Below, piece by piece: positions 16,801-62,733 of a stretch of DNA of 64,000 nucleotides. Position 1 is the first letter of the stretch, and every line of letters begins with the position of its first letter. The notes below the pieces were generated by a model, which had not been told where the DNA came from, did no database searches, and saw nothing but the letters and a program-made list of their open reading frames with translations. The DNA comes from Leuctra nigra (Eukaryota; Arthropoda; Insecta; Plecoptera; Leuctridae). The stretch spans positions 15,501,409-15,565,408 of the forward strand of contig OW203765.1 of NCBI GenBank assembly GCA_934045905.1, in the 5' to 3' direction. A program made the position numbers and the translations under genes.

Positions 16801-19800
16801 TACCTCCGCCTATTTTGGGAATATTTTCACCTCTACATTAACCAATAACCATCCCACATACCTACCAAGGTACCTACTGCAGTTTTAATAATGTTACTTG
16901 TTAAAGGTGAATCTACTCTGGAAGAAAATAGGCTATTAAGATATTGAACTCCAGAAACAAAGCGCGTATTCGTCCTGCGAGCGAACCAAGCTGTATCGTC
17001 AAACCGAGCCGAAACATTAAGAACCGAACCGAGCAGAGTGGTAAATATTTTCATTATTTTTAAATATTTAACTTTATCAAGGATTTTAGATATACATCAA
17101 TTATTTTTGTTTATGTAGGTACCTTACAAGGCCAATAACAAACATTTTTGCTGTGATCCGAAAGTAAAAATTATGTTGCATGGAAATTACATTCTTGTCG
17201 GAGGTAGTAGATACATACATTGAATGGTGGTCCCGCTTCATTCAAATACGTAGTAAAATTTTTGAGATTGAATGTTGTCATCCAAAAAAATAAACCGCAC
17301 CTTTTGAATTTCCTCTAACGCGCCGGTGGTAAGAGAGCAGCCATTCCATGCGAATGCAGACATATGCCACATAATACATATGACTGCTGAATTATTAAAT
17401 GTAAATAAATCAGCATGTTTTTATATTAAATTCATGGTATTTTCTTGCTGATTCCAAATATGTCATCAGTTTTTTTTTAAGTTTGAATAGTTATTTGTTA
17501 TCAGTAAAATTGTGGGACCGCATTTAAATTTAAATTTCGTGTCGAACCATGTAAATTACATAAAAAATTTAGAAGGCTGCACAATGATCCTAGAACTATT
17601 TTTATTTTGATGAATAAGATGCTGAACATAGCATCTTACACCCGTACACCCGTAACACGGAATGGCTGAGAGGAAATTAATTTGAGTTGCTAACTTTCAC
17701 CTTACTTTTTGTAGGTTCTACAGATTCACCGTGAACTTGCCCTGCTCTTATTCTAGAGTCGATTTAATTGCCTACCTACTTCAATTAAAAAGTAAATTTA
17801 CTTCTTGGCAAATTAGCGAGAATTCTGAAGATGCACAGGACTTGGGACTTCATCGAGTTAATGGATTAAATGTTACCTACCCTACAGATGTAATGATTCA
17901 GAACTCTCTGATGGTAAGCCACATTTTAGTATTTTATATGTGTAGTATTTCCTCTAACCTTACCTATAAATCACATTTATGCAATATAGAATGTTTCAAA
18001 TTTTTATTGGGGTTTTAAATAAATAGTGTACCTAATGGTAATAATTGTACCTCAAGTGATTATTGTGGCAGGTCACACAACACAAAAGTGATTTTTGTAT
18101 TATTCATTGCCAAGAAGTTTATCCTATCAATTTACAAATTCTTCATTGAATCTATCTTTCTTTTTTTTAGGGATCACTCTGTGCCAAAAATTCAATTTTT
18201 AAAATTTTTGTAAAGACTGTTATTTGCAGCTATCTGCTATTGCAGTTATTTACATAAATAGTTCTTGTGTAGTAGGTAGAAACTATTTGCTAGGCAGCCT
18301 CATGCTCAAAAGAAGTTGCATCCACGTAGATTGCGGATGTCAGTCCTCGACACCACAAGACCGTGTGCTAATAATTTATGGATGGAATCCAGTATCTGGC
18401 CATTAAATCGGAAAATTCTTTTGAGCATAGCATAATAATAGTGTTAAATATTGACAAAATTAACAAGATCTTACTGATAACAAGATCTTGTAAATGTTGG
18501 ACTTTCATTGGTCTGACCGAATAAAAATTTACACAAAAAATAAAAAACACTTCTAACAATACGCTGCATGATCTTGCTAAACTTTTCAAGATCTTGTATA
18601 AATCTTGTTTAGGTTAGAATCTGTACCTACAATAATAAATAATTGCAAATATCTTGCGAACATTATTATTACAAGGTACATTACCTAAATACTTTGCAAT
18701 TTTATTTTTTCAGATGAAAGAAATACGTATTCAATAGCATTCATTTTCTTGAAAAACTGAAGATGAAAAATTGTGCCAACATATCCGTGAGTGAAGTAAA
18801 ATCCGAATTGTGTCTTGTTGATAAAGAGACAGCGTGCCAGACTTACTGCCAGGTAGTACCCACCTCAGAATGTTTTGATACTATGTGACGTGTGAAGGTT
18901 GAAGGACATTTAAAAATTTTAAGTGATGTGGTAGTATAATCTTTAACAAAAATATACGTTTATATTATATGAAACTGTTTTTTTTTTAAATTTTCGTGTG
19001 TTTTCCTGCTCTTTATTATTCCTAAAATTCAATTGCAGTGAATCTCCTATGTGTAGCATTTTATTTTTTTGTAATTTATCAAAACAATATAGTACCTAAG
19101 TAAGTAGGGAAGAGTACGTGAAAAAATTATTATTGAAACGATTCAATCGTCCTGTAAGAGATTATCAAAAAATAATTGCTAATTTCAAAATCCAACAACC
19201 GATTCATAAACAAAAATTATGGATCTTTTTATCCTTCTTCATTTTTTTATGAATAAGGTAGGTAATACTTAAGTCTCTAGAAATTTTGTTCCAGTAAGTT
19301 TTTAAATATCAACGCAAATAATTCCTGACATTTGTCACCCGCGAAATGTTAAAAATTAATTCATGCAAATGAAATTCAATTATAATGGGACTTTTGGCGG
19401 GAAAAACGACGTATTACAAGAATCCACTTACACTAATGTGTTACCATTGTGGATCATCTGTCAATTTTCTGTAAATTTTCCTGTTAAAAGTAATCAAACT
19501 TTGTAAATTCATTCCTTGAAAACTATTCATCCCACAGCAAAAATAAAATCACATCTGTGTTCAGCAACATAATCAACTTTCATAAAATAATGGTCTATTA
19601 TTCTGAAATCTGAATTTCACGAGACTTCCCCATTATGTGACAGTCAAGTTGAGGATTTCAAATGATCCCAAAATATTTCCTCCAAATAAAAATGCGTTAA
19701 AAATAAAAACAGTAGGAGGTACCTTAGGTAATGTGTCAGGTCAGTGGAACAGCTTTCAAACAATAGGGAAACATGGCGAGATAAAATAACTTCCAATAAC

Positions 19801-21663
19801 CACTGATTAACTTTATAATATAACGGCTATTTTTTTATTATTAATATTTGACCATTTAAATGCATTTCTAATGTGTTTGAGTAGGTACCTACTGTTCTTC
19901 TAGTTGACATAACAAATTACAACTGTTGTGAAATATTCCGTGAACTGTGAACTAAAACATTGACCCTGGAAGAAAATACCTGGATTATGTTTTTCGTATG
20001 GCAACGCCCACTCTCCGAAATTGTGAAAAAATCCCGTTTCTCGTGTCACTCACGTTTGCAATTAATTATGTCTTAATGAAACGTATTTTTTCCAGGTACA
20101 TTCGCATTCAAAATTAGTGCCTATATGCACGTGTCTGGATCAGAGGCACGTTTTGTAGGTACTGCATTTTGAATGAGAGTGTACCTAGCAAGCTAGCACG
20201 TGACCGTTATGGAATGTGCGTAGGGGGAGGGGGCTACAGAGCGAGCAGCTGCTCCCGCGCGGGCCGCCCGGGCGGGGGCCAGGGCCGGCCTATGCCTCCC
20301 GCGCGGGCCGCCCGGGAGGGTCCAGGGACGGCCCATACCTCCCGCGCGGGCGTCATGGGACGGCCCAGGCCGCCGCCCGGGCTTATTCCCAGTGGCAGGC
20401 CCCGGGAGTCTCACTCCATGCTAATCACCCATAAGACGGGAGGTCCCTGGGCAGGCCCGTACGCCCATCTGGGACGGCCTAGGACGCGTCCAGGGACCTC
20501 CCAGTGTTTGTAGGGAGGTTGAGTCAGATTAAAATAAAATGTTTATGGCGGTGTGAGATATTTCAGAATATTGTTTCCGAGAATATTGGTGTCCGCAGAG
20601 CTGGGTAGTAACTTAACGAAAGTAACGCGTTACCGGTAACGCGTTACTTTTTTGTAACTTTTACAGTAACGCGTTCCTGCTATGATAGAAGTAACTTAGT
20701 AACGTGGAAAGTTCCTTTTTGTTGTGGAACTTTCACATTTATAAAAGTTCCTTTTGCAGTTACTTTTAGAGCAGAATGTACCTTCCCTCAACATTCAAAA
20801 CTACACCATTTCTGCCCTTCAATATGTACCTGATTTTCTCTGATAAGGAATTTTAGGTCACCTGCACAAAACCGCATTCCAATCACGCCGTTCATGCTTA
20901 GTGCGTCACCAGTTCGCCCTCTCACTTGCACTTGACCAACCCTGCCGTGCCCGTGGCATGGGGGAAGGGGGTAGAATTAGATGCAAGCCTTCTTACTGGG
21001 AGGAATTTCGTCTAAAATTTTGTTTTCCACGGAGAAAAATTACAGCCTGAATTTGTGTTTTAGCAAATTGGCTGCATTCCGGAAATAAAATGGTCAAGTA
21101 ACTTTCAAAGTAACTTTTCATTGAAAAGGAACTTCCAGTTCCTCTGATTAGTTGAGGAACTTTAACTTTAACTAGTTCCTTTTTTTCGGAAAGTAACGTA
21201 ACTTTAACGCGTTCCTATTTTTTTGGTAACTTACCCAGCTCTGGGTGTCCGTACACCAATTGATGGTTTTGTAGAAAAATCACACGAGAATCAAATATGA
21301 CGTGAATGTTACAAAACTTTCCCATCATGTTGGTAACGCGTCAATGAATTAAAAATGCAATATGTTGAATTTCAAATATAATTGCAAATTGCAAAGAATT
21401 TTACATTAAAATGGACATAACCACTACTGGGCGGGTAATATCACTTCTAATTCACTGCTGTTACATCTGAGTGTATTCTGCTGTTTGCAGACGAGCCTCT
21501 GAGCTCCACTGCCTTCACGCGATGGTGTCCTAATCAACCGAACAACTCTGATGGGAATGAGAACTGTGGCTCCGTACATCGCACCTGCCCTCTCAACGAC
21601 ATTAGTTGCTCTGTCCCTTATCCATTCTTCTGTGAGATAGAACTCTCGGGAGACGATTCCTAA
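13878..21663 (+). CDS. secreted C-type lectin, LPS-binding-protein-like (gene 2)
   Basis: Four exons: 13878-14027, 14693-14807, 15303-15560 and 21491-21663, phases 0/1/1, 231 aa with an unbroken frame. Residues 1 to about 20 (MKCVVFLSLLCVWTARVRTQ) are a signal peptide. NMT and NQT sequons follow in exon 1. The linker exon has VDMQQEKKRTERPWTVEVE. The lectin domain starts at GYELHAGIGFYKLH and shows CEEEGAHLAVLNSEAE, LIGFHD, NQPN, NENC, CPLND and PFFCE. The layout matches insect hemolymph LPS-binding-protein-like lectins, which recognise microbial sugars outside the cell. QPN in place of EPN/QPD makes sugar preference unclear. The start was chosen because transcription should begin at the TCAGT near 13856, which excludes the upstream in-frame ATG. 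Intron 3 is inflated by TIR element copy B and a hAT element. Confidence 0.88.
16290..16497 (+). other. leader-exon-like segment inside TIR element copy B
   Basis: It follows a cgcggcgtttgacg block and a TTTTACAG acceptor-like site, and ends at ATTGAAG/GTGAGT, a strong donor. In copy A the matching donor is GTAAAA. This may be a non-coding first exon of the element's own transcript, which would be read on the plus strand in copy B. Confidence 0.35.
17724..18257 (+). CDS. spliced exon pair inside TIR element copy B
   Basis: Exon a 17724-17913 lies between TTCTACAG and GTAAGC. Exon b starts at 18171 after a T-rich TTTTTTTTAG and reaches a stop at 18255-18257. Joining them keeps the frame open (NSLM then GSLCAKNSIF). 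About 90 residues are visible. Both exons and their splice sites are preserved in copy A. No family recognised. The upstream partner may be the leader-like segment ending at 16497. Whether this is the element's decayed transposase or a captured gene piece cannot be told from here. Confidence 0.42.
20596..21243. mobile_element. non-autonomous hAT element, 648 bp
   Basis: Termini CAGAGCTGGGTAGTAACTT and AACTTACCCAGCTCTG are inverted, with one small difference. The perfect 8-bp target duplication GGTGTCCG flanks it (20588-20595 and 21244-21251), diagnostic of hAT. The interior is dense in gtaacgcgttac-type repeats. No transposase. It lies in intron 3 of lectin gene 2, 250 bp before exon 4. Confidence 0.93.
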
Positions 21664-32400: not shown

Positions 32401-35400
32401 ACACCTAAACCCAGTTCCTCAATATTCTTTGTCGGCCATCTGATATATTATTATCATCACAGAGTCAAACACTGACGTTTCCTTTTTCCAGCCCCTCCAG
32501 CTCGTGCCGGACCTGGATACGAGCTTCACGCTGGAATTGGCTTCTACAAACTGCACAGAGTCACAAAGAATTGGAGCGACGCAAAGAAAACCTGCGAAGA
32601 GGAACGGGCTCATCTTGCTGTCATCAACTCTGAAGCAGAGCTCTCAGTTCTGATGAAGATGATGGCAAGCTATCCGGCTGTTGGATCCTTCGCTTTCATT
32701 GGCTTTCATGATCAATATGACGAAGGGAATTACGTGACCATATTCGGTGAGTTACAAACATTCTTTTCTTGAAAATATTAATGAAATGATTAAAAGATTA
32801 TGAAATCAATTAACTATAAGCAAACAACAAATAAATGATGATACTATTGATAGGGTATTGTTCGACAGTCGGTGGAATTAGAAGGGTAAATGGCATCACC
32901 ATTAAAATGAACATGGGCGTTTTCACCACTGTCTATTGTGCAAAGTAAATTGACTAAGTGCCCTTATATTACGATCAGAAATCTTATTTGTCACGAAATA
33001 AACTATAACATATTATATTTCACAATACAGTTTATAGCCTGGTTAAAAGAGACTAAAAATAACTTGATCCCAAAACTATAAATGACGATTTTTTTTTTAT
33101 TTTGGTGGGCTTTGTGCTACTTTCCGAACGATTTGATTTCGAGACAAAAAACGAAAAGCAATTTGCTTATTTCGGATCATGAACACTTCTGTCAAGTTTT
33201 GTCAAAATCGGAGTGGTTTATGAAATGTATAATTTGTGGAATTATTTTGATGAAAAGGTGGTGTTCACATACCTGCAGTGTTCAGATTTAGCCGGTTATG
33301 TGATTATTATTTTACAAAGCTGAAGGCAATGGATATCCCAGAAAAAAACACTCCGTGTAAAAACGGCAGCCAAGTCTCTTTACTTCAAAAAAATTCAACA
33401 CTGAAAAGGAGTGATATCAAAAAAGGAGCCAAGTCAATGACATTTCCAAATATTTAATCGTATTTTTGAAATAAAAGAATAAACACCGAGAAATACTTTA
33501 CAAAAGGACTTGGCGCATCGTTTTTTTAAAGACATCATTCTATCCTAAAAGTAGAAAGAAATTTACAAATAGGTAGGTACATTTTCCTCTTTCTATTAGA
33601 GCCAGAATCTATTAATCAAGATACTTTTAATAATAGCTATTTTATAGTTTTGTCAATGGCGATAGAAGAAAGATTTCATGCTGTAATAGATAAGTAATAT
33701 AAGGATGGAAGAATTAAATAACAATTGGAAGTGGGCTCATACATATTCTTGCAGTACCTACTGTTAATATGGTGATATTAGAAGGGAATCTTTTCATAAT
33801 TTGATCTTGACTGAAGGAAATCATGAAACGTTGTCAAATAATTACTTACTATCTATGGAACACTATTATATATTTTTGAAGTGTCAAGTGTATAAAGTTA
33901 TTTTTTTTTAATAGAAATACAATGTGACTTCACTGTGTACTTTGTGAAATGTATTGCTATAAAATGCAGTAGAAATTTATTTCATGATGAGAAGGATTAA
34001 CGCATTAGACTTACCTAATTAATATGTTGCCACGAAACAATATTACGAAGATAACTATTGTGTATTTATAGAAAACATAGGCAACAGTTTCATCGCGTAT
34101 ATATTCAAATAGAAAATATTTTACAGTAGGTATGTGTAATAAGTAATTGAAAGATGTTTCCCTATTATTCTAAAAATTCTTACTGACGGTTGTTTATAAA
34201 TGGCATATGCTTATGAATAGAAAAATGTCTTTAAAAAAACGATGCGCCAAGTCCTTTTGTAAAGTATTTCTCGGTGTTTATTCTTTTATTTCAAAAATAC
34301 GATTAAATATTTGGAAATGTCATTGACTTGGCTCCTTTTTTGATATCACTCCTTTTCAGTGTTGAATTTTTTTGAAGTAAAGAGACTTGGCTGCCGTTTT
34401 TACACGGAGTGTTTTTTTCTGGGATATCACTTCTTTTGTTAGTTTATTCATACAGCTTGTAGCACATGTCCGAGCAAGGACTAATTTCTTTAAAAAAATA
34501 CGCCTCAACCGATTTGGATAGGTACTAAGAAAAGTTGCGTTTGGTAAAAGATTAAAATGATTATCCAAAAAAAATAGCTTAGGTTTCGTTACAATCGGTC
34601 CAGCCGTTTTCGATATTTGACGTCACTTCCGGTTTTGAAATAGGGGCCGAAAATAATGTCTTCTTGAAATCATAATTAGAAGTCCTACAAAATTACATAA
34701 TTTGATAACAATCGGTTTAGCCGTTTTCGATATATAACGTCACTTCCGGTTTTGAAATGGCGGCCGAAAATAATGTTTTCTTGAATTCATAATTATTAGT
34801 CCTACATATTTCCAAAATTTGGTTGCAATCGGTACAGCCGTTTTCGATATATGACGTAAATTCATGTTTTAACAATGGCGGCCGAAAATAATGTCGTCTT
34901 TAATTCATAATTATTAGTCCTACACATTTCCAAAATTTGGTTGCAATTGGTACAGCCGTTTTCTATATATGACGTCACTTCCGGTTTTGAAATGGCGGTC
35001 GAAAATAATGTCGTCTTGAATTCATAACAATAGGTCCTACATAATTGCATAATTTGGTTGCAATCGGTACAGACGTTTTCGATAAATGACGTCACTTCCG
35101 GTTTTAACAATGGCGGCCGAAAATAATGTCGTCTTGAATTCATAATTATTACTCCTACACATTTCCAAAATTTGGTTGCAATCGGTACAGCCGTTTTTGA
35201 TATATGACGTCACTTCCGGTTTTAACAATGGCGGCCGAAAATAATGTCGTCTTGAATTCATAATTATTAGTACAACACATTTCCAAAATTTGGTTGCAAT
35301 CGGTACAGCCATTTTCGATATATGACGTCGCTTCCGGTTTTAACAATGGCGGCCGAAAATAATGTCGTCTTTAATTCATAATTATTAGACCTACACATTT

Positions 35401-37180
35401 CCCAAATTTGGTTGCAATCAGTACAGCCGTTTTTGATACATGACGTCACTTCCGGTTTTAAAAATGGCGGCCGAGAACACTGCAACCTTGAATTTATAAT
35501 TATTCACAATGTACGTTTACTAATATCTATTTAAAAGTATAAAGTGGTGAATTTAATGTCATTTTACATATTTATGACGTAATTCATCAATCATCATATT
35601 TATGACGTCATTTCCGGTATAGGTAATAAGAATACAATCTAGTTTTATCTAGTTGATACTTCATGAACGACCATCTGAATTCATAATCCCTATATTTCCG
35701 TAAAATCGGTCATGCCGTTTGTAATATATGACGTCACTTCCGGTTTCATTTAGTGGTTCCTGCCGCCATTTCCGGTACCGTTAATTTGTTTATTCATTTT
35801 TCCCAATTGATTTTTCAAATAAATAGTAGAATGAATACGCAGGAGCTAGTTCAGTTGCAATCGGTACAGGCGTTTTAGATATATGACGTCACTTCCGGTT
35901 TCAGAAATGGCGGTCGAGAACACTGCAACCTTGAATTTATAAATTGTATTGTCTACATTACAATGTAAGTTAATTATGTACGTATTTTAAGTATAATTTG
36001 TTGAATTTAAGTGAAATTTTGCGTATTTATGACGTCACTTCCGGTTTAGAAAATAAGAAAATAATTTTTTGTTATTGATACTTCATATAGATGACCATAT
36101 AAATCGAATGGCGCTAATTTCGTTCTAATCGGTCCAGCCGTTTTTCATATATGACGTCACTTCCGGTTTAAAAATGGCGGCACAAAAAATCACAAGAGGC
36201 AAGGTATCATCAGACGCCAAAAGTGCATATGTGGTAAAAATTTCAGGTTGATCGGTTCAGCCGTTTAGGCTGTGGCGGTGACAGCGACCTTTTCTGATAT
36301 CATCTGAAGAAGAAGAAGAAGAAGAAGAAGAAGAAGAAAGCGGTGTAATTTCACGATTTTCACTGCCCTCTAGGTCGTAAACGGCATGACTGGTTGTTGT
36401 CGCGTGATGTATATGTTGTCAGGTGGGCCATAGCTCAAAATTAAGACATTTCACAACAATGAGAGATTTTTCATAGTTGAGATCCAGTAGGCTGAAAATG
36501 CTATGTTGTTGCTTACAGTAAAAGTAGTTGGTCTGCTCCTCAGTTTATATAGGCATTTACGGTATATGTAGAGTGACTGTGAGTGTACGGTACGACTTGG
36601 CTGTGTGGAGCGACCGCTCCACTAGATAGTAGTTAGTTCCAACCTAGTATTACCAGGCTATTACAGATCAAACAGCGGCTGCCGGCTTGCAAGTTTCGCG
36701 GCAATTCATACATGCCCGTGAATCGGGTCGCCCATGATCAAAACATCCATCAGCTGCATACCGTATTTGATTCAAACGCTCAGTTTCCCTATCCTTTTAA
36801 CATTGTGACGTAATCATCTGGGCGTGACCTTGAGTCGAATCTAGTCGAATGAATGGAAATACAGTCATCCATATTGGATCAGAAAGCCCAGGCTTTTGAG
36901 TTGATGTATTGTGCACAGGTTTGAGTTCCGTTTGATGACGCGGCAAGTTTGATTTAACCCGTAAATCCTATGGTGACGTCACACGCCGAACTCGCCCCTA
37001 TTGTGTGTGTTGCTGATTGCAGACGAGTCTCTGAACAGCACCGGCTTCACACGCTGGTGCGGTGGTCAGCCGGACAACTACAATAGCAATGAGAACTGTG
37101 GCTCTGTCCATCGCATTTGCGGACTCAACGACTGGTTGTGTTCCCATCGTGGTCCTTTCTTCTGCGAGCAAGAGCTGTGA
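29431..37180 (+). CDS. secreted C-type lectin, LPS-binding-protein-like (gene 4)
   Basis: Exons 29431-29580, 31523-31637, 32492-32746 and 37023-37180 give 225 aa. Exons 1 and 2 are almost the same as in genes 2 and 3. Exon 3 (PPARAGPGYELHAGIGFYKL..., LAVINSEAELSVLMKMM, FIGFHDQYDEG) is closer to the broken copy 1. Exon 4 has GGQPD (galactose-type), NENC, LND, then WLCSHRGPFFCEQEL, one residue type away from the canonical W-N-D region. The C-terminus lacks the SGDD tail. Intron 1 holds a Helitron-like element and a SINE, intron 2 a TIR element, and intron 3 a 3.3-kb fold-back composite. The gene therefore looks like a mosaic: N-terminal half of the gene 2/3 type, lectin domain of the copy 1 type. 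Confidence 0.87.
29602..30747 (+). mobile_element. Helitron-like element in intron 1 of lectin gene 4
   Basis: It begins TTGAGCGAGCGAAGCGAG 21 bp after the exon 1 donor and ends GAGCGTTTTTCTAG before host T. 1146 bp. The first 330 bp match other copies and the middle is different. A stem lies before CTAG as in the family. It may be two fragments brought together. Confidence 0.6.
31262..31500 (+). mobile_element. tRNA-derived SINE
   Basis: A tRNA-like head has an A box (TAGCTGAGTGGT, from 31273) and a perfect B box (GGTTCGATTCC, 31315-31325). A non-tRNA body (ctgggttttttcgtgg, aaatgctggggaggc) and a CATCAT-rich tail ending near ctgcagaatagtgcgac follow. It ends about 20 bp before exon 2 of lectin gene 4. 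Confidence 0.75.
31997..32355. mobile_element. short TIR element, about 359 bp
   Basis: Ends catgggcgtccacag and ctgtggacgccgatg are inverted with one mismatch. A G/C-rich block (gaggggggtgggcaag ... gcccccccc) follows the left end. A related fragment occurs at 724-890. No clear target duplication. Intron 2 of lectin gene 4. Confidence 0.75.
32747..33331. other. intron 3 start of lectin gene 4, no feature
   Basis: A/T-rich. A short piece (gtcaaaatcggagtgg) resembles 40185-40200. Nothing else seen. Confidence 0.45.
33332..34427. mobile_element. fold-back element of the ACACTCCGTGTAAA family, large loop
   Basis: Left arm 33332 to about 33530 (gatatcccag, aacactccgtgtaaaa, gacttggcgcatcg) pairs with the right arm from about 34228 to 34427. 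The A/T-rich loop is about 700 bp. Arms end in gatatccc/gggatatc. Other copies have loops of only a few dozen bases, so the loop here probably holds extra inserted sequence. Confidence 0.8.
34428..36625 (+). repeat. composite repeat with 118-bp minisatellite
   Basis: After the fold-back, a tandem array of 117-118-bp units spans about 34590-35480. The TGACGTCACTTCCGG landmark recurs near 34619, 34737, 34853 (mutated), 34971, 35088, 35206, 35324 and 35442. Diverged units continue to about 36175. A GAA microsatellite lies at about 36304-36338. The composite ends in a perfect 8-bp hairpin gtggagcg-ac-cgctccac followed by TAG (36605-36625). The same end occurs at 54350 and 59329. Open frames across the array only read the repeat. 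Confidence 0.85.
36626..37022. other. intron 3 end of lectin gene 4, no feature
   Basis: No repeat or gene recognised between the composite's terminal hairpin and the acceptor TGATTGCAG of exon 4. Confidence 0.5.
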
Positions 37181-39585: not shown

Positions 39586-42500
39586 ATGGTGACGATTCAG
39601 TGCTTCATAATGCTCGCTCTGTCCTGGACAACACTGGTTCGACTCCAGACGACGGAGGTGTGTTTGCCGGGGAATGCGCCGGCAGTGAAGTTCAAGGTCA
39701 GCAGTCACTTGAACCAATCAGGACACTGGATTCATCAGGTATGAGGTATAGATATGTAGTATAGCGACAGCAAACAGTTTATATTATCATTCGCTACAAT
39801 ACAGGATGGGGTTTATGTTGAAACCACATATCAATAGAAATACCACTTTTACCAACAAGATTACGTAATTTCATCGCAACCTAATTAGTAATTAGCAAAT
39901 ATCAGCGATCATATGCACTGCAGGAATTGTTCCAGCTATTATTGAGATTTTCTGCTTTTTTCTCCCAAAAGGCATATTTTATTTGTGATTCTCTGATTTA
40001 CTGAAGTCATTGGCCCATTGAAAAGTAATATTTTAGTCAGTTCGCGACGATTTAGGTCACTTTGAGTGTGATTTGACGTTTTGCGAGGTCCATATTTCCC
40101 AAACAATGAGATTTAGAGGAAAACGCTAAGAGGGCTATTTGTGTTCATTTAGAATGGTGAACAATTCTACCAAGTTTCGTCAAAATCGGAGTTACATGAA
40201 AAAAAGTTTCTTTGCTAGATGGAATTAACATGGGAAATTAACTTAAAAAGTGATTAAAAAGTACTTCCGGCGCACGTGTTTTGGAGGATTTTGGATATGT
40301 TGTAGAGGGCATTTTTCTGATTCGATTCATCTTTTAAAACCTTCTGATGCAATTAGTGGTGGGTTTAGCTCTTTTTTGCTTTAAATTACTGGACAACTAG
40401 ATCAGTTGCAGTTTGCGTTTCATAGAATTAGCGAGCCAAGAGAGCTAGAGAAATAGAATTCACAAACAATTGTTACTGTGACGCATGATGTGTTCCATTT
40501 CCCCTATGAGCTCTCTTGGTCGGTGACGCCATGGTCGCTAATTCCAATTCAGCCGAACTCTTCTCAATTTAGGGGATGGGATAACTTATAGTACATAACT
40601 CAGAGAAAAACGAATACAATATACATTTAGTTTGTGGGGAAGCAGCGCCGAGGATTAAAATAGGAACTGGCCTGTAGTAATTTCATTGCATGTAATACCT
40701 ACTTAGTATTAGAAAATACATGCAATTTTCTACTGCCTCTGAACACATTATCTATATTTTCTTACTTAAAAATGTGTTACTACAATAAAGTAGCAGATTT
40801 AAAATAATAATCGTAATTTCATATCTTATAGTTTGGAATTCCTGAAGAAAGAAAATAGTTTTAGTTTCACATCCATCTTGAGCATTTAGTCTTTGACAAA
40901 ATTGTAATGACACAAAAACGAGTTGCATAGATTCAACAGGTCCATCTCAAAGCTTAATGAGATCGCTCTCCTCTACGCCCCCCGACGGCTACCACCTTAG
41001 CACGGGGTAGGGTTTGTCTTAGCCAATGATCCATTGTAGCTAAGCCGGCGAGCATATGCTCATGTGTAAGGGCTACCCATGCCATACAGGTCAGTAGAGA
41101 GGTCCAGACAAAGAGTAGCCACGGTCGACCTACCCATGTCCTCCCTTGAATTCACGGTCCCCTCGGGCCGCCCCCCACCCCCCCTCGAGACGGACGTCCC
41201 ACCCAATCTGGTCCCACCGGCCCAAGCACTCCCGCCCCCGATCCGTCCCCATTCTGGCCTGGCCTTCCCACCAGTACTGGACTCCCACGGACCGGGCCCC
41301 TTTGGTCGACCCCTCCCCATGACCTCCATGATAAAAAAATATAACACTTATCTAATCTATTCTCCTTCTTCGTTATTAAATAGTAAAACATCGTGCAAAC
41401 AAATGTTCCGTTTGAAAACATTGATTTCAATAAGTTGTCCTGTTTTTCTCAGAACTGAACGAAGAAGAGATGGCCTGGTTCGAATCTAGGCAACCTTGAA
41501 TGTGACGTCAGTGATGTGTCATGTTGGTACACCTGCAGGTGGTTGTTCAGAAGGAGAAGAAGCCTCAACGACCTTGGACGGTGGAAGTTGAGGAGAGCAA
41601 AGTGGTCTGCAATGGAGTCGACTTCTTGGAAACCACAACAAGGTTCATTGGTAGGCTTTCAACACTGTTCACTGCTGACATCTTTTTTAAAGATGTTCAG
41701 TCGGATGGCAATGTTATTTTCGTTTTATCAATACCAATAACAAGTATGTACAAGGTATCCAGTAACAATACTAGAACTACGCTCTACGTAACGCATTGAT
41801 AAGCGAGGTTTCGCATTGCAATATGCGAATTAATATTCGTGTGAAAGTTGCTGCTCTACAATGATCTTGTAAATTGCAGGGAAGATATATTTTTTTAAAT
41901 TTTCATTGAAATTTCTTTAAGTATACCTAAATTTGAAAAATTTTCAAAGCATAAATAAAATGTCAGTAAAATGCAATCAGCTTTTAAAGTTCTTGACTAA
42001 TTGATCTGAAATTTGTCTTTAACATGTCATATTTGAAGTTGATCGGTTTTACTGTTCCTGAATCAATTTCAACCAATCAAAGGATCTTCTTCAACTTTAC
42101 TTGTGGCCGCTGGAATGACATTAGTGTTTGTACAAAAGTGCAGATCGATTGGTTGAACGATGCATTAAAAAGATAGTGCAAAGGTTACCATAGTGACTAA
42201 TACTAGGAAAACGCTCATTGTAACGCGTTGGTAAGCGAGCACTGATACGCGCTATACCTCTAATACCAATGCAACACTTGAAATAAATTGTAATATTATA
42301 AGGAATATATTTTATACAATGACAAAGATTTACCGAAATTCATGAATCAAAAATTGATTCTTATCAATTTTTTATTTCAAATCCATTTGTGATGGAAAAA
42401 ATGTCAAAATCGTATTACCTACTTTAAAAATTTTGCAAATTATTGACCCCTGTCTCTCATTTGAATCAAAGGAAAACAACCTTTTCTTAATGGTGGGGGC

Positions 42501-44136
42501 GGGCTGGCTGGTCATTAGTGGAGGGGTGGGGTGGACAGGATGCAACTTGGGTCAACTCAGCAGGGTGTCGCGCGGCAAGGGTAATACATAAAATAATCAA
42601 CTTTTTGATTTGAATATTGCTGAAAAAATATTCCAGGCCGAAATTAGAATGATATTAGTGTATGTTCAAAATTTTAGCTCGCCAATATGGCGCGAACAAA
42701 AAAAAACAGAGAAAGAGGCATAAGAGTCCCGCCGTAGTAACGCTCGCTACGCTCGCTTAATTAAAGATGGTAACCGTCCTCAGCACCTCCAGCTGCTCGA
42801 GTCCCCGGCTACGAACTCCTCGAGGGCCTCGGCTTCTACAAGTTTCACTCCTCGGCTGCCACATGGCCGCGCGCTAGAGAGGTGTGTGACCTTGAGGGCG
42901 GCCATCTTGTCGTCATTAACTCCGAGCAGGAGTCGCAGGCGATGGTTCAACTCTTCGCCAAGAACCCGAACATCGTCGGAGCGACGTACAACCAGAGGGC
43001 GTGGATCGGCCTGCGAGAGTCGGAGACCACGAACGGCAAATACTTCACAATATTTGGTAACACCTAATATTTTATTTGTTTATATATATGGTATATCAGT
43101 CACTATCTAATCCTTCACTATCTTGTTTATCTATTATTATTAAAAATTTATCAAATGAGGAACAGAGAGTCGCCATAGTTATGTAGATTCGATCTCCGTA
43201 TCATCTAGAGCGTACTATGTTATTACCGTCAAAGTTTTCAAAGAATAGCAAGTAAAAAATATGACCATGACCATGACAAAATGAATTAAACCGCAGTAAA
43301 AGCAAATGTCTCCTGATGTAAATTAATTCCATAAGTATAAAAGAGCAAATATAAAGATAGTTTCCCTTCTTACACCAAATTATTTGCCCTAAAATAGCTT
43401 TAAGCAGGCTAACCAATATAAATCCACTACCATCAACATACAAGCAAAAGCAACATGTAAAATGACCAAATTGTGTGTGATGCTCTATGTATACTGTGAT
43501 GCGTATGGTCCAAGGTTTCTACGAATGGGGTTGTTCACGCAAAACTATTGTAGATGGCACTGCTGTTCTAATCGTCCGAGAGAGAGCCAATCAAAATGCA
43601 TCTAGCGGAATGGAAGGTTTTTAAACCTTGGCGGGAGTTTGATTCATAGATCTTGGATTCAGAGACCAACCAATCAGAGAGAGACACCTCCAATGCCGCT
43701 AGCGCTGCGAGTGAGAGCAAATGGCAGTGAACAACCCCATTGTTTTCCTATCCATATCTACGTTGATCACCACTATACAATAACAAGGGACACACTGTCA
43801 AGTTACTCTCAGCTTTCTGTATCATGACCGAATAGCAGAGACGTAGGTAAGGTCATGTGACAGATTTCATCCAATTGGAGAGCTGCTCTTCACTCAGCTC
43901 TCTGCTTGTACTTGACAGTGTGTCCCTTGATCGCATCAAAACTAATAACTTGATCTGTCTATACAGGCGAACCCTTCGAGATGACCGGTTTTACTCGCTG
44001 GAGTAACCAGCGTCCTGTACCCGGCAGTGTCGGCGATTACGTATACGTCTTCCAGATCAACGGAGGTCTCGTCGACGTGCCCGTCAACAACAACTGGAAG
44101 TTCGCCTTCATCTGTGAACAGGAGTTCTGGTGGTAG
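39586..44136 (+). CDS. divergent secreted C-type lectin (gene 5)
   Basis: Exons 39586-39738, 41539-41650, 42784-43056 and 43967-44136 give 235 aa with the family's intron phases. Signal peptide MVTIQCFIMLALSWTTLVRL. The CLPGN and NQSGHWIHQ motifs match the paralogues. The linker has VVVQKEKKPQRPWTVEVEES. The lectin domain has GYELLEGLGFYKFH, CDLEGGHLVVINSEQE and AWIGLRESE. The last exon replaces EPN/QPD by NQRPVPGSVGDYVYVFQING, and the NENC/LND region by PVNNNWKFAFICEQEFWW. Canonical calcium-site residues are therefore missing. Exons 3 and 4 are more GC-rich than in genes 2-4. A Helitron-like element ends 23 bp before exon 3. Directly after the stop, the end of exon 4 is tandemly repeated. 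Confidence 0.85.
39739..40969. other. intron 1 of lectin gene 5, first part
   Basis: No feature beyond A/T-rich sequence and a short piece (gtttcgtcaaaatcggag) shared with 33195. Confidence 0.45.
40970..41340. repeat. GC-rich dispersed repeat, copy 2
   Basis: Longer copy of the repeat at 28010-28275, sharing ggtcccaccggcccaa, gtccccattct, gtcgacccc and cttcccaccagt. The left part (tacgccccccgacggctacc, gggctacccatgcc) has no counterpart in copy 1. Open frames of 92-136 residues on both strands are GC-driven. Confidence 0.65.
41770..42202 (-). mobile_element. diverged Helitron-like remnant
   Basis: It begins acgctctacgtaacgcattgataagcgagg, a degraded form of the family end, followed by diverged interior matches (gtgaaagttgctgctcta, ttgaagttgatcggtt). 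It abuts a better preserved copy. Confidence 0.4.
42203..42760 (-). mobile_element. Helitron-like element next to exon 3 of lectin gene 5
   Basis: On the minus strand it runs TTAAGCGAGCGTAGCGAG ... TGAGCGTTTTCCTAG followed by host T. 558 bp, shorter than the other copies. Its end lies 23 bp before the exon 3 acceptor AG, so the branch point and part of the pyrimidine tract probably come from the element. Confidence 0.65.
43057..43523. other. intron 3 of lectin gene 5, no feature
   Basis: A/T-rich; the 80-residue minus-strand frame has no support. Confidence 0.45.
43524..43741. mobile_element. small fold-back/TIR element
   Basis: Perfect 15-bp ends aatggggttgttcac / gtgaacaaccccatt, with further internal complementarity (gatggcactgct, atgccgctagc) and a central palindrome aaggtttttaaacctt. 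218 bp. In intron 3 of lectin gene 5. Confidence 0.7.
43784..43929. mobile_element. small TIR element, 146 bp
   Basis: Perfect 20-bp inverted ends caagggacacactgtcaagt (43784-43803) and its reverse complement (43910-43929). No clear target duplication. It lies 37 bp before exon 4 of lectin gene 5. Confidence 0.75.
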
Positions 44137-46196
44137 TCAGCGTCCTGTACCCGGCAGTGTCGGCGATTACGTATACGTCTTCCAGATCAACGGAGGTCTC
44201 GTCGACGTGCCCGTCAACAACAACTGGAAGTTCGCCTTCATCTGTGAACAGGAGTTCTGGTGGTAGTCAGCGTCCTGTACCCGGGAGTGTCGGCGATTAC
44301 GTATACGTCTTCCAGATCAACGGTCAACGTGCCCGTCAACAACAACTGGGAGTTCGCCTTCATCTGTAAACAGGAGTTCTGGTGGTAGTCAGCGTCCTGT
44401 ACCCGGCAGTGTCGGCGACTACATCTACCTCTACCAGATCAACAGTCGACGTGCTCGTCAACAACAACTGGGAGTTCGCCTTCATCTGTGAACAGGAGTT
44501 CTGGTGGTAGTCAGCGTCCTGTACCCGGCAGTGTCGGCGACTACGGCTACGTCTACCAGATCAACGGTCGACGTGCCCGTCAACAACAACTGGAAGTTCG
44601 CCTTCATCTGTGAACAGGAGTTCTGGTGGTAGTCAGCGTCCTGTACCCGGCAGTGTCGGCGACTACGGCTACGTCTACCAGATCAACGGTCGACGTGCCC
44701 GTCAACAACAACTGGGAGTTCGCCTTCATCTGTGAACAGGAGTTCTGGTGGTAGTCAGCGTCCTGTACCCGGCAGTGTCGGCGACTACGGCTACGTCTAC
44801 CAGATCAACGGTCGACGTGCCCGTCAACAACAACTGGAAGTTCGCCTTCATCTGTGAACAGGAGTTCTGGTGGTAGTCAGCGTCCTGTACCCGGCAGTGT
44901 CGGCGATTACGTATACGTCTTCCAGATCAACGGAGGTCTCGTCGACGTGCCCGTCAACTACAACTGGGAGTTCGCCTTCATCTGTGAACAGGAGTTCTGG
45001 TGGTAGTCAGCGTCCTGTACCCGGCAGTGTCGGCGACTACGGCTACGTCTACCAGATCAGAGTTCTGGTGGTAGTCAGCGTCCTGTACCCGGCAGTGTCG
45101 GCGACTACGGCTACGTCTACCAGATCAACGGTCGACGTGCCCGTCAACAACAACTGGGAGTTCGCCTTCATCTGTGAACAGGAGTTCTGGTGGTAGTCAG
45201 CGTCCTGTACCCGGCAGTGTCGGCGACTACGGCTACGTCTACCAGATCAACGGTCGACGTGCCCGTCAACAACAACTGGGAGTTCGCCTTCATCTGGGAA
45301 CAGGAGTTCTGGTGGTAGTCAGCGTCCTGTACCCGGCAGTGTCGGCGACTACGGCTACGTCTACCAGATCAGAGTTCTGGTGGTAGTCAGCGTCCTGTAC
45401 CCGGCAGTGTCGGCGATTACGTATACGTCTTCCAGATCAACGGAGGTCTCGTCGACGTGCCCGTCAACAACAACTGGAAGTTCGCCTTCATCTGTGAACA
45501 GGAGTTCTGGTTGTAGTCAGCGTCCTGTACCCGGAAGTGTCGGCGACTACGGCTACGTCTACCAGATCAACGGTCGACGTGCCCGTCAACAACAACTGGG
45601 AGTTCGCCTTCATCTGTGAACAGGAGTTCTGGTGGTAGTCAGCGTCCTGTACCCGGCAGTGTCGGCGACTACGTCTTCGTCTACCAGATCAACAGTCGAC
45701 GTGCTCGTCAACAACAACTGGGAGTTCGCCTTCATCTGTGAACAGGAGTTCTGGTGGTAGTCAGCGTCCTGTACCCGGCAGTGTCGGCGACTACGGCTAC
45801 GTCTACCAGATCAACGGTCGACGTGCCAGTCAACAACAACTGGGAGTTCGCCTTCATCTGTGAACAGGAGTTCTGGTGGTAGTCAGCGTCCTGTACCCGG
45901 CAGTGTCAGCGACTACATCTACGTCTACCAGATCAACAGTCGACGTGCTCGTCAACAACAACTGGGAGTTCGCCTTCATCTGTGAACAGGAGTTCTGGTG
46001 GTAGTCAGCGACCTGTACCCGGGAGTGTCGGCGACTACATCTACATCTACCAGATCAACGGTCGACGTGCTCGTCAACAACAACTGGGGCCTTCATCTGT
46101 GAACAGGAGTTCTGGTGGTAGTCAGCGTCCTGTACCCGGGAGTGTCGGCGATTACGTATACGTCTACCAGATCAGAGTTCTGGTAGTAGTCTGAGT
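44137..46196 (+). repeat. tandem array derived from the last exon of lectin gene 5
   Basis: Eighteen copies of the exon 4 segment follow the genuine one. Taking cagcgtcctgtac as landmark they begin at 44138, 44268, 44390, 44512, 44634, 44756, 44878, 45008, 45076, 45198, 45320, 45388, 45518, 45640, 45762, 45884, 46006 (cagcgacctgtac) and 46123. The genuine segment starts at 44008. Spacings fall into three classes: 130 bp (as in the gene), 122 bp (8 bp lost around aggtctcg; one 117), and 68 bp (internal deletion joining cagatca to gagttctgg). The 130-bp copies keep the lectin frame through FICEQEFWW and TAG; the 122-bp copies shift it. No AATAAA lies inside; ATTAAA at 46392 and AATAAA at 46906 follow, so the array may be transcribed as 3' UTR. 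Confidence 0.95.
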
Positions 46197-47650
46197 TCTA
46201 GTTTTTTTTTAATTCCTCACCAATTTGTAGCAAAAATTCTACCACAAAACAGGCAAAATTTACACCGTTTCAAAATTACCCTTGAGTGTATAAGTTGACC
46301 AGAGTGGATCACTAGTTGATCTCCCTTTGACATTATGTTTGGGGTACCAGGTGTGATTCCTCTAAACAATCATGCCGTCCATGCTCGTGACATTAAATAT
46401 TTAGACACCTTGACAAAATACTGGAATATTTCCCAGAGCGCATGTGTTTTATAGTATGTAATTTCAATCGATATTCCCAGGACAGTTGTTATTCCTTGTA
46501 AAGAAGGTCTTGTGAAGTGACGCTTGTGATGGCTCCAGACAATGTTCCAGTTTTAAATGGAAGCAACTGCGACCTGGGATGGGAATACTTGATAAAAACA
46601 CTTTACTTTTTCGGTGAGTCTTTTCATGTAAACTTGGCCGAAGTAAAAATAGTTTTCGGACGAAACGAACTGGGCTGATAGATGTAATGAAGTCTATGCA
46701 AACTCGTCTTCTAACTATTATCTGCGCTCTGATTTCATTGATATTAACTAGGATTGATTATCAATGAACCTGAATGGCAATCCGTTTCGCTCAATTACCG
46801 TTTTTACTGTGACCAAGTGTACACGCACTTTGTCTGTTCTTCTAATGCCGGAAAGTTAAATTGTCAAAATAACTTTGATATACCGACCCTAAGTAAAATA
46901 GCTTAAATAAAAATGAATCACCAAATATTGAAGAGAAAGACCGCATCATCTTTGTACTCCTTATTCATTCCAATTGGTCAGGAAATAATACTACATCCAG
47001 ATCCAGGTTAAAATAATGCAATACGCTACAAAATAATACAAAATATAAACCAATGAAGTGAGCGCTCGGCCGTTGAATAGGTACGATTGGGCATGATGAA
47101 ATATCCATAAATGTATGTTTCTCTAACAGAATGTTTACAAGATCACTCAGATAGAGTTAGGCTCGGGTCTGAGGAGGCGAAGTATTATTATTGTTTAATT
47201 TTTGCTTCATTACTTCTTAAATAAACGCCAGTTTTGCAGCAAAAACGGGCAAAAGTATGCTCAATCGGTAAGGTTTGGTGACGAAGCCCTCAGTAACCAA
47301 TTTTAGAATTCGTTATCATTTTCTGTTGAAATCTTTGGAACAAGTTTTTATTTTTATGAGTTATTTTATGTTGTCCTGACATCCAGGGGGGGAGGCAAAC
47401 GCCCCTCTTGCCCCCCCTCACTATAGACGTCATTGTGTACGTTTTACTGTCATTGAATGGCATCTGAAAGATTTATACTTGATAAAATATTTCTATCAGG
47501 CGTGGCATATTTTCACTACCGACTATTTCACTTTCATAGAGCATGGTTATAATGTCATGCGGGCTATCACGAAAAGAAGTTGATTTTTAGCTAGTCCTAT
47601 CTCAAAGTAAAAAAAACTAAATAAAGAATATTTAAATAAATAACAAGCAA
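46197..47650. other. intergenic stretch after the lectin cluster
   Basis: Mostly A/T-rich. It includes a G/C patch at 47375-47425 (ccaggggggg ... gccccccct) typical of a transposon end, and the possible first exon listed separately. Otherwise nothing seen. Confidence 0.45.
46529..46613 (+). CDS. possible first coding exon, gene unknown
   Basis: ATG at 46529 opens a frame (MAPDNVPVLNGSNCDLGWEY...) ending at TTTTTCG/GTGAGT, a good donor. Base composition rises locally. No downstream partner exon was found before the retrotransposon at about 48.1 kb. It could be the start of a gene interrupted or continued far downstream, or chance. Confidence 0.28.
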
Positions 47651-49125: not shown

Positions 49126-52100
49126 ATGAATTCTTGGACAGAACTACAGGAAGAACTAACAAACTACCAAATAAAAACTATAACATGCACTAACACTGCA
49201 GATCTCAATAACATTAATAAATTCCAAGACTTCAAACTCCTCCATTTCAACATCAGAAGCATAAACAAACATTTCGACGAACTCATAGTGATTCTGAACG
49301 AAGTGACATCGGCATACGACGTGATCATTCTAACAGAGACTCAGATACAAAAAGACACATCTGACTATCAAATTCCAGGTTACCATATATTTTACTTCAA
49401 TTCAAAAATTCGACGGAATTGTTATATATGTAAAGGAATCTCTTTCTAACATATCAGTCACATTAGTGCATAGTCTCTCAGAAGCAAACGCAGGATTAAT
49501 TCGTTTCGAAATAAGCGGAGAAACTTACACCATTTTGGCAGTATACAGATCCCATCAGGAAATATAAAAAAGTTCCTAGAACAACTAAGTTCAACTCTAG
49601 AGAATATAAATGCTGTCCACAAATTCCTTGTAGGTGATATCAATATTGACATATTAGAAAACGAAACTAGACACCATAGTTTCTTAGAAATTGAATACTT
49701 AAATACTCTAGCAACAAATGGATATATTTCCTACATAAACGGCCCAACTCGAGTCACTGAAGACACACAATCTTGCATTGACCATCTCTTTATAAACACA
49801 AACAAAAATTACACTTCAAAACCAGTCATATTTCAAACAAGTATGACTGACCACTACGGTTTATCATTTTCCTGGAACTTTTCAAATAAAAACGGCAAAT
49901 TAAACAAGGACGCCCAACTAACTCACTCTATTACTAAGCAAATTATAAATTACAGTGAGCTTAAAGATAGTATCGGTAATGAAAAATGGGAAAACATATT
50001 TAATTGTACCGATCCTAATTTAGCTACCGATATGTTTATAAGTACGGTTAAAAAATATATAAGCGAATCCACTACTTATAAGTCATATATTCAAAACTCC
50101 AAATTTAAAAAAATAAACCTTGGATAACCAAAGGACTAATTACTTCTATAAGGAAAAGGGACGCGATGAGTCGAGAACTTAAAAAGGATAATATGTTTCG
50201 TCTACAAAATAATTTACCGCCAAATACTGAATTTCGCCAAAGATATAAGTTCTTTAGAAACTACCTTAATTTATTAATTAAAGATACTAAAAATAATTAC
50301 TATGCAAGCAAAATAGCAGCTGCAAATAATGATCCTAAGCTTATTTGGAAAATAATAAATGATGTAACACCAAGTGCAAAAAATAAATCAAAATCCCAGG
50401 GAATAGAAAAGCTTATTGTTAACAATAACAAAATTAACGTAAAATCAAACTCACAAGAAACTGCTGATGTCTTCGTCGATTATTTTACCTCAGTTGGACA
50501 AGAATATGCAGACAAAATAAAAAGCAACGCTCTTTATGGGAACTCTTCACTCGAAGAAGAACAATTAAATATAATGCATTCTATAAGTTTTCTACCTGTT
50601 ACTTCTGCTGAGATATACAAGACAATAATGGAACTGAAATCAAATACGTCTTGTGGTATTGATAACATTGAAGCATCAACTATAAAAATATTAGCCCAAT
50701 TTATTACTTACCCCCTGGAACACATAATAAACATATCTTTCTCAGCTGGAATTTTTCCCCAGTCATTAAAAATTGCCATCATCAAACCTATATATAAAGC
50801 AAAGGAAAAATTCAAAATTGAAAACTATCGACCTATTTCGTTATTGACTCACTTTTCTAAAATATTCGAAAAATGTATAAAAACAAGAGTCATGAGCTTT
50901 TTTGACAAATTTAACGTCCTCTCTTCGTGCCAATTTGGTTTTAGACCGAAACTCAGCACACAAGACGCTATTTATTCACTAACTTCCAGCATATCGCATT
51001 CATTAGATAATTCACAAAAACCTGTTGCCATTTTTCTCGATCTAGCTAAAGCTTTCGACACTGTGAACCACAAAAAGCTAGTTGAAAAACTTGAACGAAT
51101 TGGCATAAGAGGTGTCCCGCTGAACCTACTACAGAACTACCTTGAAAACAGAACTCAATACGTAAAAATTAATTCCTTCTTAAGTAAACCAATGACTCTT
51201 ACTTGCGGGGTCCCACAAGGGACCGTTTTAGGACCCATTCTTTTTCTTATTTACATCAACGACCTATGTAACCTTCACACTGGAGGAAAGCTGATATCCT
51301 ATGCAGACGACACAATACTTATATTTACCGACACTTCATTTGACTTAGCTATTAGTAAAGCAGAAATAGGACTAAAGAAAGTACATGCATGGTTAAACGA
51401 AAATCTGCTCAGTCTCAATTTAGCCAAAACTGTTTTCATGACTTTTTCAAACAATAAATTGCGCGTAAATAATTATCAAACACAACTTCAAATACATGAA
51501 CAAAATTGTATCGTTTCAAATTGCCCTTGTTCTTGCTACAAAATTCAAAAAGTATCACAAACCAAATATCTTGGAATTATTATCGACGAGCAGCTAAAAT
51601 GGAAGCTGCACATTGTCGCGCTTTTAAAATCAATCAGACTAATAGTATATAAATTTATTCGACTTAAACCAATATTAAATATATGTAACTTGAAGGCAGT
51701 CTACTACGCACTTGTTCAATCGCAAATCCAATACTCAATCATATCTTGGGGTAGCGCTGCTGCGACCTTCGTTAAACCACTAAATACCATACAAAAGTCA
51801 ATTATTAAAATTATGTTTAATAAACCTAGAGATTATTCACCAAACTCTATTTTTAAAGTTTCAGACACTCTTTCAATTAAACCATTATTTATACAAAGTT
51901 TACTTTTGCATACCTTCACTAAATTTGTTAATACTAAATCGACAAATCATCATCACTCTACAAGAACAGCATCATCACAAAATTTAGAAATCCCCAGGAA
52001 AAGCACATCCTTAGGACAAAGGCAAAGCGATTATCTTGGCCCCAAAATTTTTAATTCAATACCGAATTCCTTAAAGACTATTGATAATATTAAAATCTTT

Positions 52101-52208
52101 AAGAAGTGCATTAAAATTTGGCTCAAACAATTACCTCAATCCCATTGGGATACTGAATTAGATAGATGCTCATCAAAATTTTACTCCAGTAATTTAAGTT
52201 TCAATTAA
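49126..52208 (+). pseudogene. ORF2 endonuclease-reverse transcriptase of the CR1-like element, frameshifted
   Basis: The endonuclease region shows LLHFNIRSINKHFDEL, VGDINIDIL, IDHLFI and a TDHYG motif but is broken by frameshifts near 49410, 49548 and 50112. From 50166 a 680-residue frame covers the reverse transcriptase: SLKIAIIKPIYK, NYRPISLL, QFGFRPKLSTQ, FLDLAKAFDTVNH, GVPQGTVLGPILFLIY, and the catalytic YADD (near 51300). A CR1-type C-terminal part follows. All three breaks lie at or near short homopolymers, so some could be assembly errors. Expected role: target-primed reverse transcription. Confidence 0.88.
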
Positions 52209-55015: not shown

Positions 55016-55452
55016 TAACATACCTTTTAATCTCATAATTTTCATTTTTTATTGATACAAATCTATCTGGTACATTTAAAATCAATCCTCTTTCTTTGTT
55101 ATAAAAGTCTGGTACTAAGGAACAAAATATCCTGATTATGCCATATATATATATATATATGTCGATTATGCAAATTATGTTGACAAACGTCTGGTACAGC
55201 CAAGTTCGTTACTTCGCAGTCCAGTCTCGAAGCAACCCAAACTGCACAGAGGGAATTTGTGTTGACTTCCAGCAAAAGTTGTCATCAAATGTTAGTATAT
55301 AACATGATCTGGTTCACTGACTCTCGAATTGATCTCTAATGCATGAGGGTAGTCAACACAACTACCAGCTGTGTATTGCGGGCTGCGTGCCCATTCGAGC
55401 TCAAGGGGACCCTGACTGGCTTCTTTTGACTCTCACTGTACGTGTTGAAGGT
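55016..55452. other. region upstream of the odorant receptor
   Basis: It contains a (TA)n run at 55144-55160. An upstream in-frame ATG exists at 55339. No clear core promoter identified. Confidence 0.4.
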
Positions 55453-60162: not shown

Positions 60163-62733
60163 TAGGTATATTAAGGAAAGAAGCTTAACTTAATATTATG
60201 TCTTACATTCTATTTACTTACTCAGGTACCTCATCGTTCCTACCAAAAATACCGTATCCTATCCGCCAATACTTTTCAAAACATTTGTTAGAAAATAATG
60301 TTATAATGAAAACTGTGATAGATAATGAGGCATATGCGACGTTTCCAAATTTACGCATTAGAAAATTAAAATTAAAATCCCGTATAGTAAAAATAGTTCC
60401 TTGCCTTTTAGTAAATTTTAATCACAGGCAGTAGGAACATCAATAATCTGGTTAGATATGCCTATAAAGTAAATGTTTATAGATACCTTATTATAATACC
60501 TATGTAAAATGAAATTAGACGAGATTTTAGAAAATTATCTTTTATCTTTTAATATTTATCTAGATAATTTTTTTTTATCTTTATCTATTATCTAGATAAT
60601 TTTTTAAACAATTATCTATTATCTTATCTAGATAAATTTTTGGCAGTTATCTATTATCTTTATCTAGATAAAAATAAAATTATCTAGTCACAACACTGCC
60701 TGCGGTACACCTGTAACATATTTATTTTTAACACTATAATTTTGACCTATTTTAACAACTATATGCCTATCTAAAAGATAACTCATAAACCATTGCAATA
60801 CAGGTCCCCTTATCCCTACTCTCTGCAAGGCCGCTATCAGCTTATTATGATCTAAAGTGTCAAAAGCCTTTGTATAGTCAATAAACATAACTAAAATGTG
60901 CATATTATTGTTTATCTTGCTATTTATGTAGTCTGAAAATAATGATAACAAATTCCCTGTTCCTTTCCCCTTTTGAAACCCAAACTGCGCGGAATTTATT
61001 ATATTGTAAGTTTTCAAATAATGTGACAATTTTTCTTCTACATAACGCTCCATAACCTTTTCAATCGCTGGTAATATCGCAATAGGCCTGTAGTTGCTAT
61101 ATTCCAAGTGGTTTCCCTTTTTAAAAACAGGACGCACAATAGATACTTTTAGTTTCTCAGGCACAATACCCCTTTTGAAAGATACATTAAACAGGTTTGA
61201 CAACACAGGACTTATTTTTTCGGCAACCAACACTAAATCCTTCATCCTGATTCCTTCAATTCCAGGTCCTTTACTTACATTCATTCCATTAATGATAGAT
61301 TGCACCACCCCAGGACTAACCGGCCGAAGAAACATTGATTGCATTATACAGTTTTCAGCCTCATTACTAATTTGCATATGACAGTCATGCTTCAAATTAT
61401 TGACTTCACTAATAAACGAATCAACAAAAATGTTTGCAATGTTCAGATCAGACTGTGTCTTACCAAGGTATCTGTGTATGACTTCATCAACAGACAAATT
61501 CCCACTTTTACCTATAATTTTGTTTATTGTTTGCCATGTCTCCTTAATGCAATACTTAGACCTTTCTAACTCGATCTGATAGAAATAAATTTTTGCTTTT
61601 TTAATATCGCTAACGACTTCATTTCTTATTTTATTATAATCAATTTTAAGTGTAGCCTTTAGCGTGTTATGACAGCTTTTAAATCTTTTGAACGCTATAT
61701 CACGGTTGCGCACCTTTTCAAGCAGCTCTGGAGTCATCCATTGCTTCCTTGCTTGCTTCCTTATACCTACATTAGACACAGTGAACATTGACCGCTTATA
61801 ACAATCATCAAATCTATTTACTATTTTATCGTACAATTCAACACAGTCATCCACATTTAACAAATCCGCCCACTCTACAGACTCAAGTATAGTTTTTAAT
61901 TTACGTTCATTTAATATTTGCTTAGGTAGGCTTTGCTTTTTTCCAATAAATTCTTCTCGATTGAGCAAATTTACATTTACACCAACAAAATAATGATCTG
62001 AGAGTTTTGACGTGTAAATTAAGGAGGAAATACCTGCATAATTAGAACGCAAATAAATATGGTCTATGCAAGATTTAGTTACAATATTTCCCAAAAGCTC
62101 CTCTCGAGTGACTCCATAAATACATTTCTTAAATCCATTCACAGCCAAAACACTTTCATACTCTTGTACAATATTATCATTATTATTTAGCAAGTTTAGG
62201 TTCACATCTCCAACAATTGCAACATTACTAATTTTTATTCGTGATATATAATTCTCCAATTCACGTATAAAATTGAATTTGTCTGCCGCTGGAGGTCTAT
62301 ATATCGCAATTATGCAAATTTTTGAACCCGATTTTGTAGTTAGCACACCACTTATGTTCTCAAAGCTGACAAACTTAACGTTATCTCTTACAAAACTTGA
62401 ATCATCTTTTACAAACAATATCAGCCCTCCTCCTCGCTTGATTTCCCTAACAAATGAAAAAGAATTATAACCTTGAAAATTAAATACCTGCGTCTCGAAA
62501 TCATTGTTCAAACCTATCTCTGATAACACCAACTCATCAAAACATCCAAGAATATTGCTCAAGATCACATTTAATTTATTCCATTTTTTTTTTATTGATC
62601 TAATATTAACATGTAATATTGTAAACCCTTCTCTTAATATCCACTGACCTAAGTCATCAACAACAACCTGGATTCCGTTATCAATATCATGTTCGTCGTC
62701 AAATATTTGGAACATGCAAAACACCTAACAGGA

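Follow-up and report, generated by a model that had tools for sequence, protein, structure and literature searches.

A probable passive minisatellite derived from the coding end of a lectin exon in Leuctra nigra

Repeats and silent cassettes in described systems

Minisatellites (VNTRs) are known, also within 3′ UTRs, and in the case of Prdm9 the repeats are translated in frame. The array described here, which follows lectin gene 5 in a stretch of 64,000 nucleotides of the stonefly Leuctra nigra (hereafter the window), shares with minisatellites and VNTRs its head-to-tail units of about 100 bp, the indels common to several units, the exchange between units, the similarity of neighbours and a part that is coding, whereas it differs from the Prdm9 array in that the stop codon lies inside the lectin unit, so that the first copy alone would be translated. 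The existence of coding minisatellites is exemplified by the Prdm9 zinc-finger array (PMC3890296). Another kind of likeness is offered by vlsE/vls of Borrelia, where, according to an excerpt of PMC11499132, one expressed copy lies beside contiguous similar silent copies, some of them frameshifted. The same excerpt gives vls a head-to-head arrangement in which the junction bears inverted repeats, and describes its cassettes as often having long open frames, with heterogeneity concentrated in variable regions; the lectin array, in contrast with what is described there, lies on the same strand as the expressed copy, is mostly frameshifted and shows no excess of amino acid changes. As for tandem arrays arising from exon ends or placed after a stop codon, none appears in the titles and abstract openings of the 30 open-licence PMC matches listed.

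The lectin gene and the units of its array

Gene 5 and its relatives in the window resemble what we take to be the insect LPS-binding-protein kind of C-type lectin-like genes, the likeness residing in the Lectin_C match and in the clustering of related genes with related exons, and the difference in that the three other exon 4 copies found in the window are unrepeated, whereas that of gene 5 is repeated (Table 1). Translated together, exons 3 and 4 scored above the cut-off of Pfam Lectin_C (E 6.5e-11, 43.4 bits, cut-off 22.6), a PDB sequence search gave 8 matches at E ≤ 0.001, the best-named being C-type lectins and their receptors, and the predicted product, judged from its sequence, belongs to the C-type lectin-like domain superfamily. 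For exon 1, a crude search gave two signal-peptide-like start candidates. Ca-dependent sugar-binding C-type lectins carry an EPN/QPD-type motif together with an inner cysteine pair; in the alignment, the exon 4 sequence of gene 5 carries RPV where the paralogs have an EPN/QPD-like motif, and one cysteine versus five in each of three paralogs, for which reason sugar binding by its product is doubtful, and on motif and inner cysteine pair the gene fails as a lectin of that class. In the alignment, the first residue of the repeat immediately precedes the EPN/QPD-like motif of the paralogs, which is presumably part of the ligand site, so that the unit would cover the ligand-side segment of the domain.

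The related stretches are distributed along the window: those of exon 2 at 14705, 26681 and 31535 (58% identity over 31 aa), those of exon 3, detected by tblastn, at 12332, 15308, 27259 and 32494 (E 7e-11 to 1e-19), and those of exon 4 at 13001 (E 2e-5), 28436 (E 0.003) and 37025 (weak, E 0.02), while no exon 4 was found for gene 2. GC3 was 0.73 in exon 3, 0.76 in the part of exon 4 within the array, 0.62 in the 13 codons preceding it and 0.49–0.67 in seven paralog exons; this comparison gave no array-specific rise in GC that would mark biased gene conversion. Gene 1 may be a damaged gene; the lectin match of its exon 3 (12131–12514) begins at query residue 29 and adjoins a repeat copy at 11404–12304. 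A 4.7-kb inverted duplication (3105–7786 and 15823–20515, 98.3% identical) encloses gene 1 together with exon 3 of gene 2 and is adjoined by a 200-base N gap (2814–3013). Matches to RVT_1 (reverse transcriptase) at 50109–52205 (+) and 60691–62724 (−) would correspond to non-LTR retroelements, and for a frame at 55333, considered as an insect olfactory receptor, Pfam gave no match and the best PDB E was 0.09, which is not meaningful.

Table 1. Coordinates of lectin gene 5, the units of the array and the first polyadenylation hexamer
Feature	Position in the window	Strand	Basis
Probable exon 2 of lectin gene 5 (approximate ends)	41539..41642	+	Translation VVQKEKKPQRPWTVEVEESKVVCNGVDFLETTT at 41542-41640; splice sites by eye
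Exon 3 of lectin gene 5	42784..43056	+	tblastn relatives; Lectin_C; splice sites by eye
Exon 4 of lectin gene 5, TAG at 44134-44136	43967..44136	+	Reading frame, paralogous exons
u01, coding repeat copy: end of exon 4 and one base past the stop	44008..44137	+	Unit splitting
u02, 130 bp, same sequence as u01	44138..44267	+	Unit splitting, comparison with u01
u03-u07, five 122-bp units, each frameshifted by the 8-bp deletion	44268..44877	+	Unit splitting
u08, 130 bp, in frame, 2 differences from u01	44878..45007	+	Unit splitting, comparison with u01
u09 (68 bp), u10 and u11 (122 bp), u12 (68 bp)	45008..45387	+	Unit splitting
u13, 130 bp, in frame, 1 difference from u01	45388..45517	+	Unit splitting, comparison with u01
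u14-u17 (122 bp), u18 (117 bp), u19 (68-bp type, last, end ~46190)	45518..46190	+	Unit splitting
First AATAAA/ATTAAA past the stop codon (ATTAAA), beyond the array	46392..46397	+	Hexamer search

When cut at the conserved start CAGCG[T/A]CCTGTACCCGG, the array resolves into 19 head-to-tail units in the same orientation and without spacers, that is, the exon copy u01 and 18 more, the latter spanning 44138–46190 directly after the stop codon of gene 5; Tandem Repeats Finder reports 44008–46174, with a period of 122, 17.4 copies and a score of 2478. The preliminary description, in which 18 additional copies of a 130-bp exon end extended to 46196, thus holds as to number, orientation and absence of spacers, but full length is retained by only 3 of the 18, and its end took in a few flanking bases, u19 stopping near 46190. 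Besides these three 130-bp units there are eleven of 122 bp, which carry an 8-bp deletion that shifts the frame, one of 117 bp (u18), with a private 5-bp deletion, and three of a 68-bp type (u09, u12 and u19) with one large deletion common to all of them. Units u01 and u02 are identical in 130 of 130 positions, fifteen different sequences occur among the 19 units, four of them twice, and u03 combines the 5′ variants of the 130-bp class with the deletion that marks the 122-bp units. With up to 3 mismatches allowed, a 21-mer taken from the 122-bp class has 14 matches in the 64-kb window (9 of them exact), all within the array, against 0 in 100 shuffles. Beyond the window, a protein search for relatives gave 18 candidates sharing words, none at E ≤ 0.001, in a collection presumed poor in animal sequence, and among viral contigs, from a collection likewise presumed animal-poor, there were 0 exact 25-mer matches and 0 of 11 pattern matches were confirmed as relatives.

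Variation, reading frames and transcript end

The units differ from each other by a mean of 4.4% in pairwise comparison with gaps excluded, and neighbouring units resemble each other more closely (Mantel r = 0.27, p = 0.005, distance versus spacing). The four-gamete test, applied to 11 sites chosen by us from 19 variable sites plus the deletion, with the two commonest states of each, indicates at least 3 exchanges within units if no mutation was repeated; in the analyses of distance, clustering and exchange, columns 53–120 of u09, u12 and u19 were masked, the alignment there being an artefact of the deletion. Change among the units fits neutrality: 6 of 22 different changes with respect to u01 are synonymous, 4.0 being expected at random (P(≥6) = 0.18). 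In the first 54 nt the proportion is 5 of 12 versus 2.2 expected (P = 0.052), a surplus that could weakly indicate constraint, whether past or present, and that is the opposite of diversification. The clustering of the variable sites is weak (p = 0.059; p = 0.087 for all the changes), although the four positions diagnostic of the two main classes occupy a 15-nt block (44037–44051, u01 positions 30–44; p = 0.004 for sites picked after seeing the data), which hints that this block may stem from one multi-base event rather than from independent drift; a 21-mer search of the window for its source found no matches outside the array.

The exon reading frame is kept over the first ~50 nt in all 18 downstream units, and it runs through to the normal stop in three of them (u02, u08 and u13), being broken in the other 15. 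The predicted end of u02 is identical to that of the exon, that of u08 has two changes and that of u13 one, whereas in the 122-bp units translation stops after 33 residues in 10 of 11 cases, and in u11 continues in the wrong frame. A long frame or readthrough across the array was not found, since among the frames of at least 40 aa overlapping 43800–46600 the longest from stop to stop has 140 aa; nor is a role as alternative terminal exons supported, as two simple patterns detected neither a GTRAG donor nor a pyrimidine-tract acceptor within the array. From the stop codon to the first polyadenylation hexamer there are 2256 nt in gene 5, compared with 20, 396 and 293 nt in the three paralogs whose exon 4 was found; for randomly placed starting points outside the array the median is 280 nt (95th percentile 1420). 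As the first canonical hexamer appears only beyond the array, the latter would probably lie within the 3′ UTR of gene 5, provided that it is transcribed and the canonical signal is used.

Explanations for the origin of the array

The array is most likely a passive minisatellite seeded by the duplicated end of a lectin coding exon and probably placed in the 3′ UTR of that gene. It is formed, as minisatellites (VNTRs) are, of contiguous head-to-tail units of tens to more than 100 bp, and the Mantel and four-gamete results point to homogenisation by exchange between units. It would have started with a single tandem duplication of the coding exon end, whose break points seem, by eye, to share at most one or two bases; afterwards, slippage during replication, together with unequal exchange and short conversion tracts, would have spread and homogenised the units, and the recurrence of the 8-bp deletion, as well as that of the large deletion in three units, is what would be expected from spread by exchange. 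Selection would have acted on the first unit alone, as this must retain the reading frame and the last cysteine. Given that u01 is the same as u02 and nearly the same as u08 and u13, the exon end seems to form part of the exchanging block, so that, over evolutionary time, exchange is likely to reach the expressed exon; the coding end could then take changes from the array, which would constitute a mutational hazard, and it could also seed the intact units u02, u08 and u13. The formation of arrays would not be unusual in this region, because two more of similar unit size are found in the window, one at 1–723 (80-bp unit, 9.0 copies), which reaches the window start, and the other in lectin gene 4, where it lies between exons 3 and 4 (34584–35504, 118-bp unit, 7.8 copies). 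In a toy simulation of slippage with arbitrary parameters and selection on the first unit alone, 170 of 400 runs ended with 14–24 units, and among these 170 runs a proportion of at most 3/18 intact units arose in 42% and identity of the first two units in 16, which shows compatibility only. Some features hint against passivity, namely the coverage of the ligand side, the packing of the class sites, the synonymous surplus in the 5′ part and the six variant peptides considered below.

These peptides belong to the alternative in which the downstream units are silent cassettes that would diversify the expressed lectin by segmental conversion, mainly in the first ~50 nt. Seven distinct peptides of the [GS]DYxxxx stretch occur among the 18 units, six of them unlike that of the exon, the exchange tracts are shorter than one unit, u01 and u02 are identical, and conversion is physically plausible because exchange inside units has occurred; moreover, broken units would be compatible with donor use, since some vls silent cassettes also bear frameshifts and stops, as described in the cited excerpt of PMC11499132. 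Against this, most of the donors do not keep the coding frame to the normal stop, the three intact units contribute 3 altered residues between them, a single peptide of this stretch is shared by 9 of the 18 units and that of the exon is found in 4, and amino acid changes are not in excess, the 5′ part having if anything a synonymous one. With the donors broken and this excess absent, the donor store is disfavoured and seems quite improbable to us, and its more specific form, a same-strand variant store behind the stop whose short tracts would carry the six peptide variants of the ligand-side segment into the exon, is more doubtful still; a function of the array as a store of diversity is not supported. 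The array might alternatively lengthen or structure the mRNA tail and so control stability or translation, which we consider unlikely: the first hexamer is indeed farther from the stop than in the paralogs and from random points, but this is simply what results when 2 kb of G+C-rich repeat are placed there, and, although longer pieces fold slightly better, a 1000-nt piece was matched by 3 of 20 shuffles, the z-scores with respect to shuffles were 0.04 for a single unit, −0.91 and −1.23, so that no fold clearly more stable than shuffled sequence was obtained, and Rfam, at gathering thresholds, matched nothing in the array. Least probable of all is an artefact of assembly, with a real copy number much smaller or otherwise different; four unit sequences do occur twice and the window does contain an N gap, but this gap is ~41 kb distant, and the 15 distinct sequences among 19 units, the private substitutions in several units and the private deletion of u18 make a simple duplication unlikely, since private changes would not arise from duplicated reads or graph loops.

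Thus, among the options left open in the preliminary description, the passive minisatellite (a) is favoured by broken frames, neutral-looking change and the similarity of neighbours; the donor store (b) is disfavoured by 3 of 18 units in frame, one of them equal to the exon, and no amino acid excess; and, of the structured 3′ UTR (c), the location remains likely from the hexamers, while the structure does not stand on z-scores of 0.04, −0.91 and −1.23. The rating of the array as a candidate for an undescribed system is accordingly unsupported, the evidence favouring the passive minisatellite.

If the units did convert the exon, an animal gene from a family with frequent roles in innate immunity would possess a cassette system. 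If the array is passive, it would be a natural case of a coding exon end turned minisatellite, with the sole translated unit at the edge of the array, and it would be useful for gauging the danger that exchange with broken copies poses to a gene.
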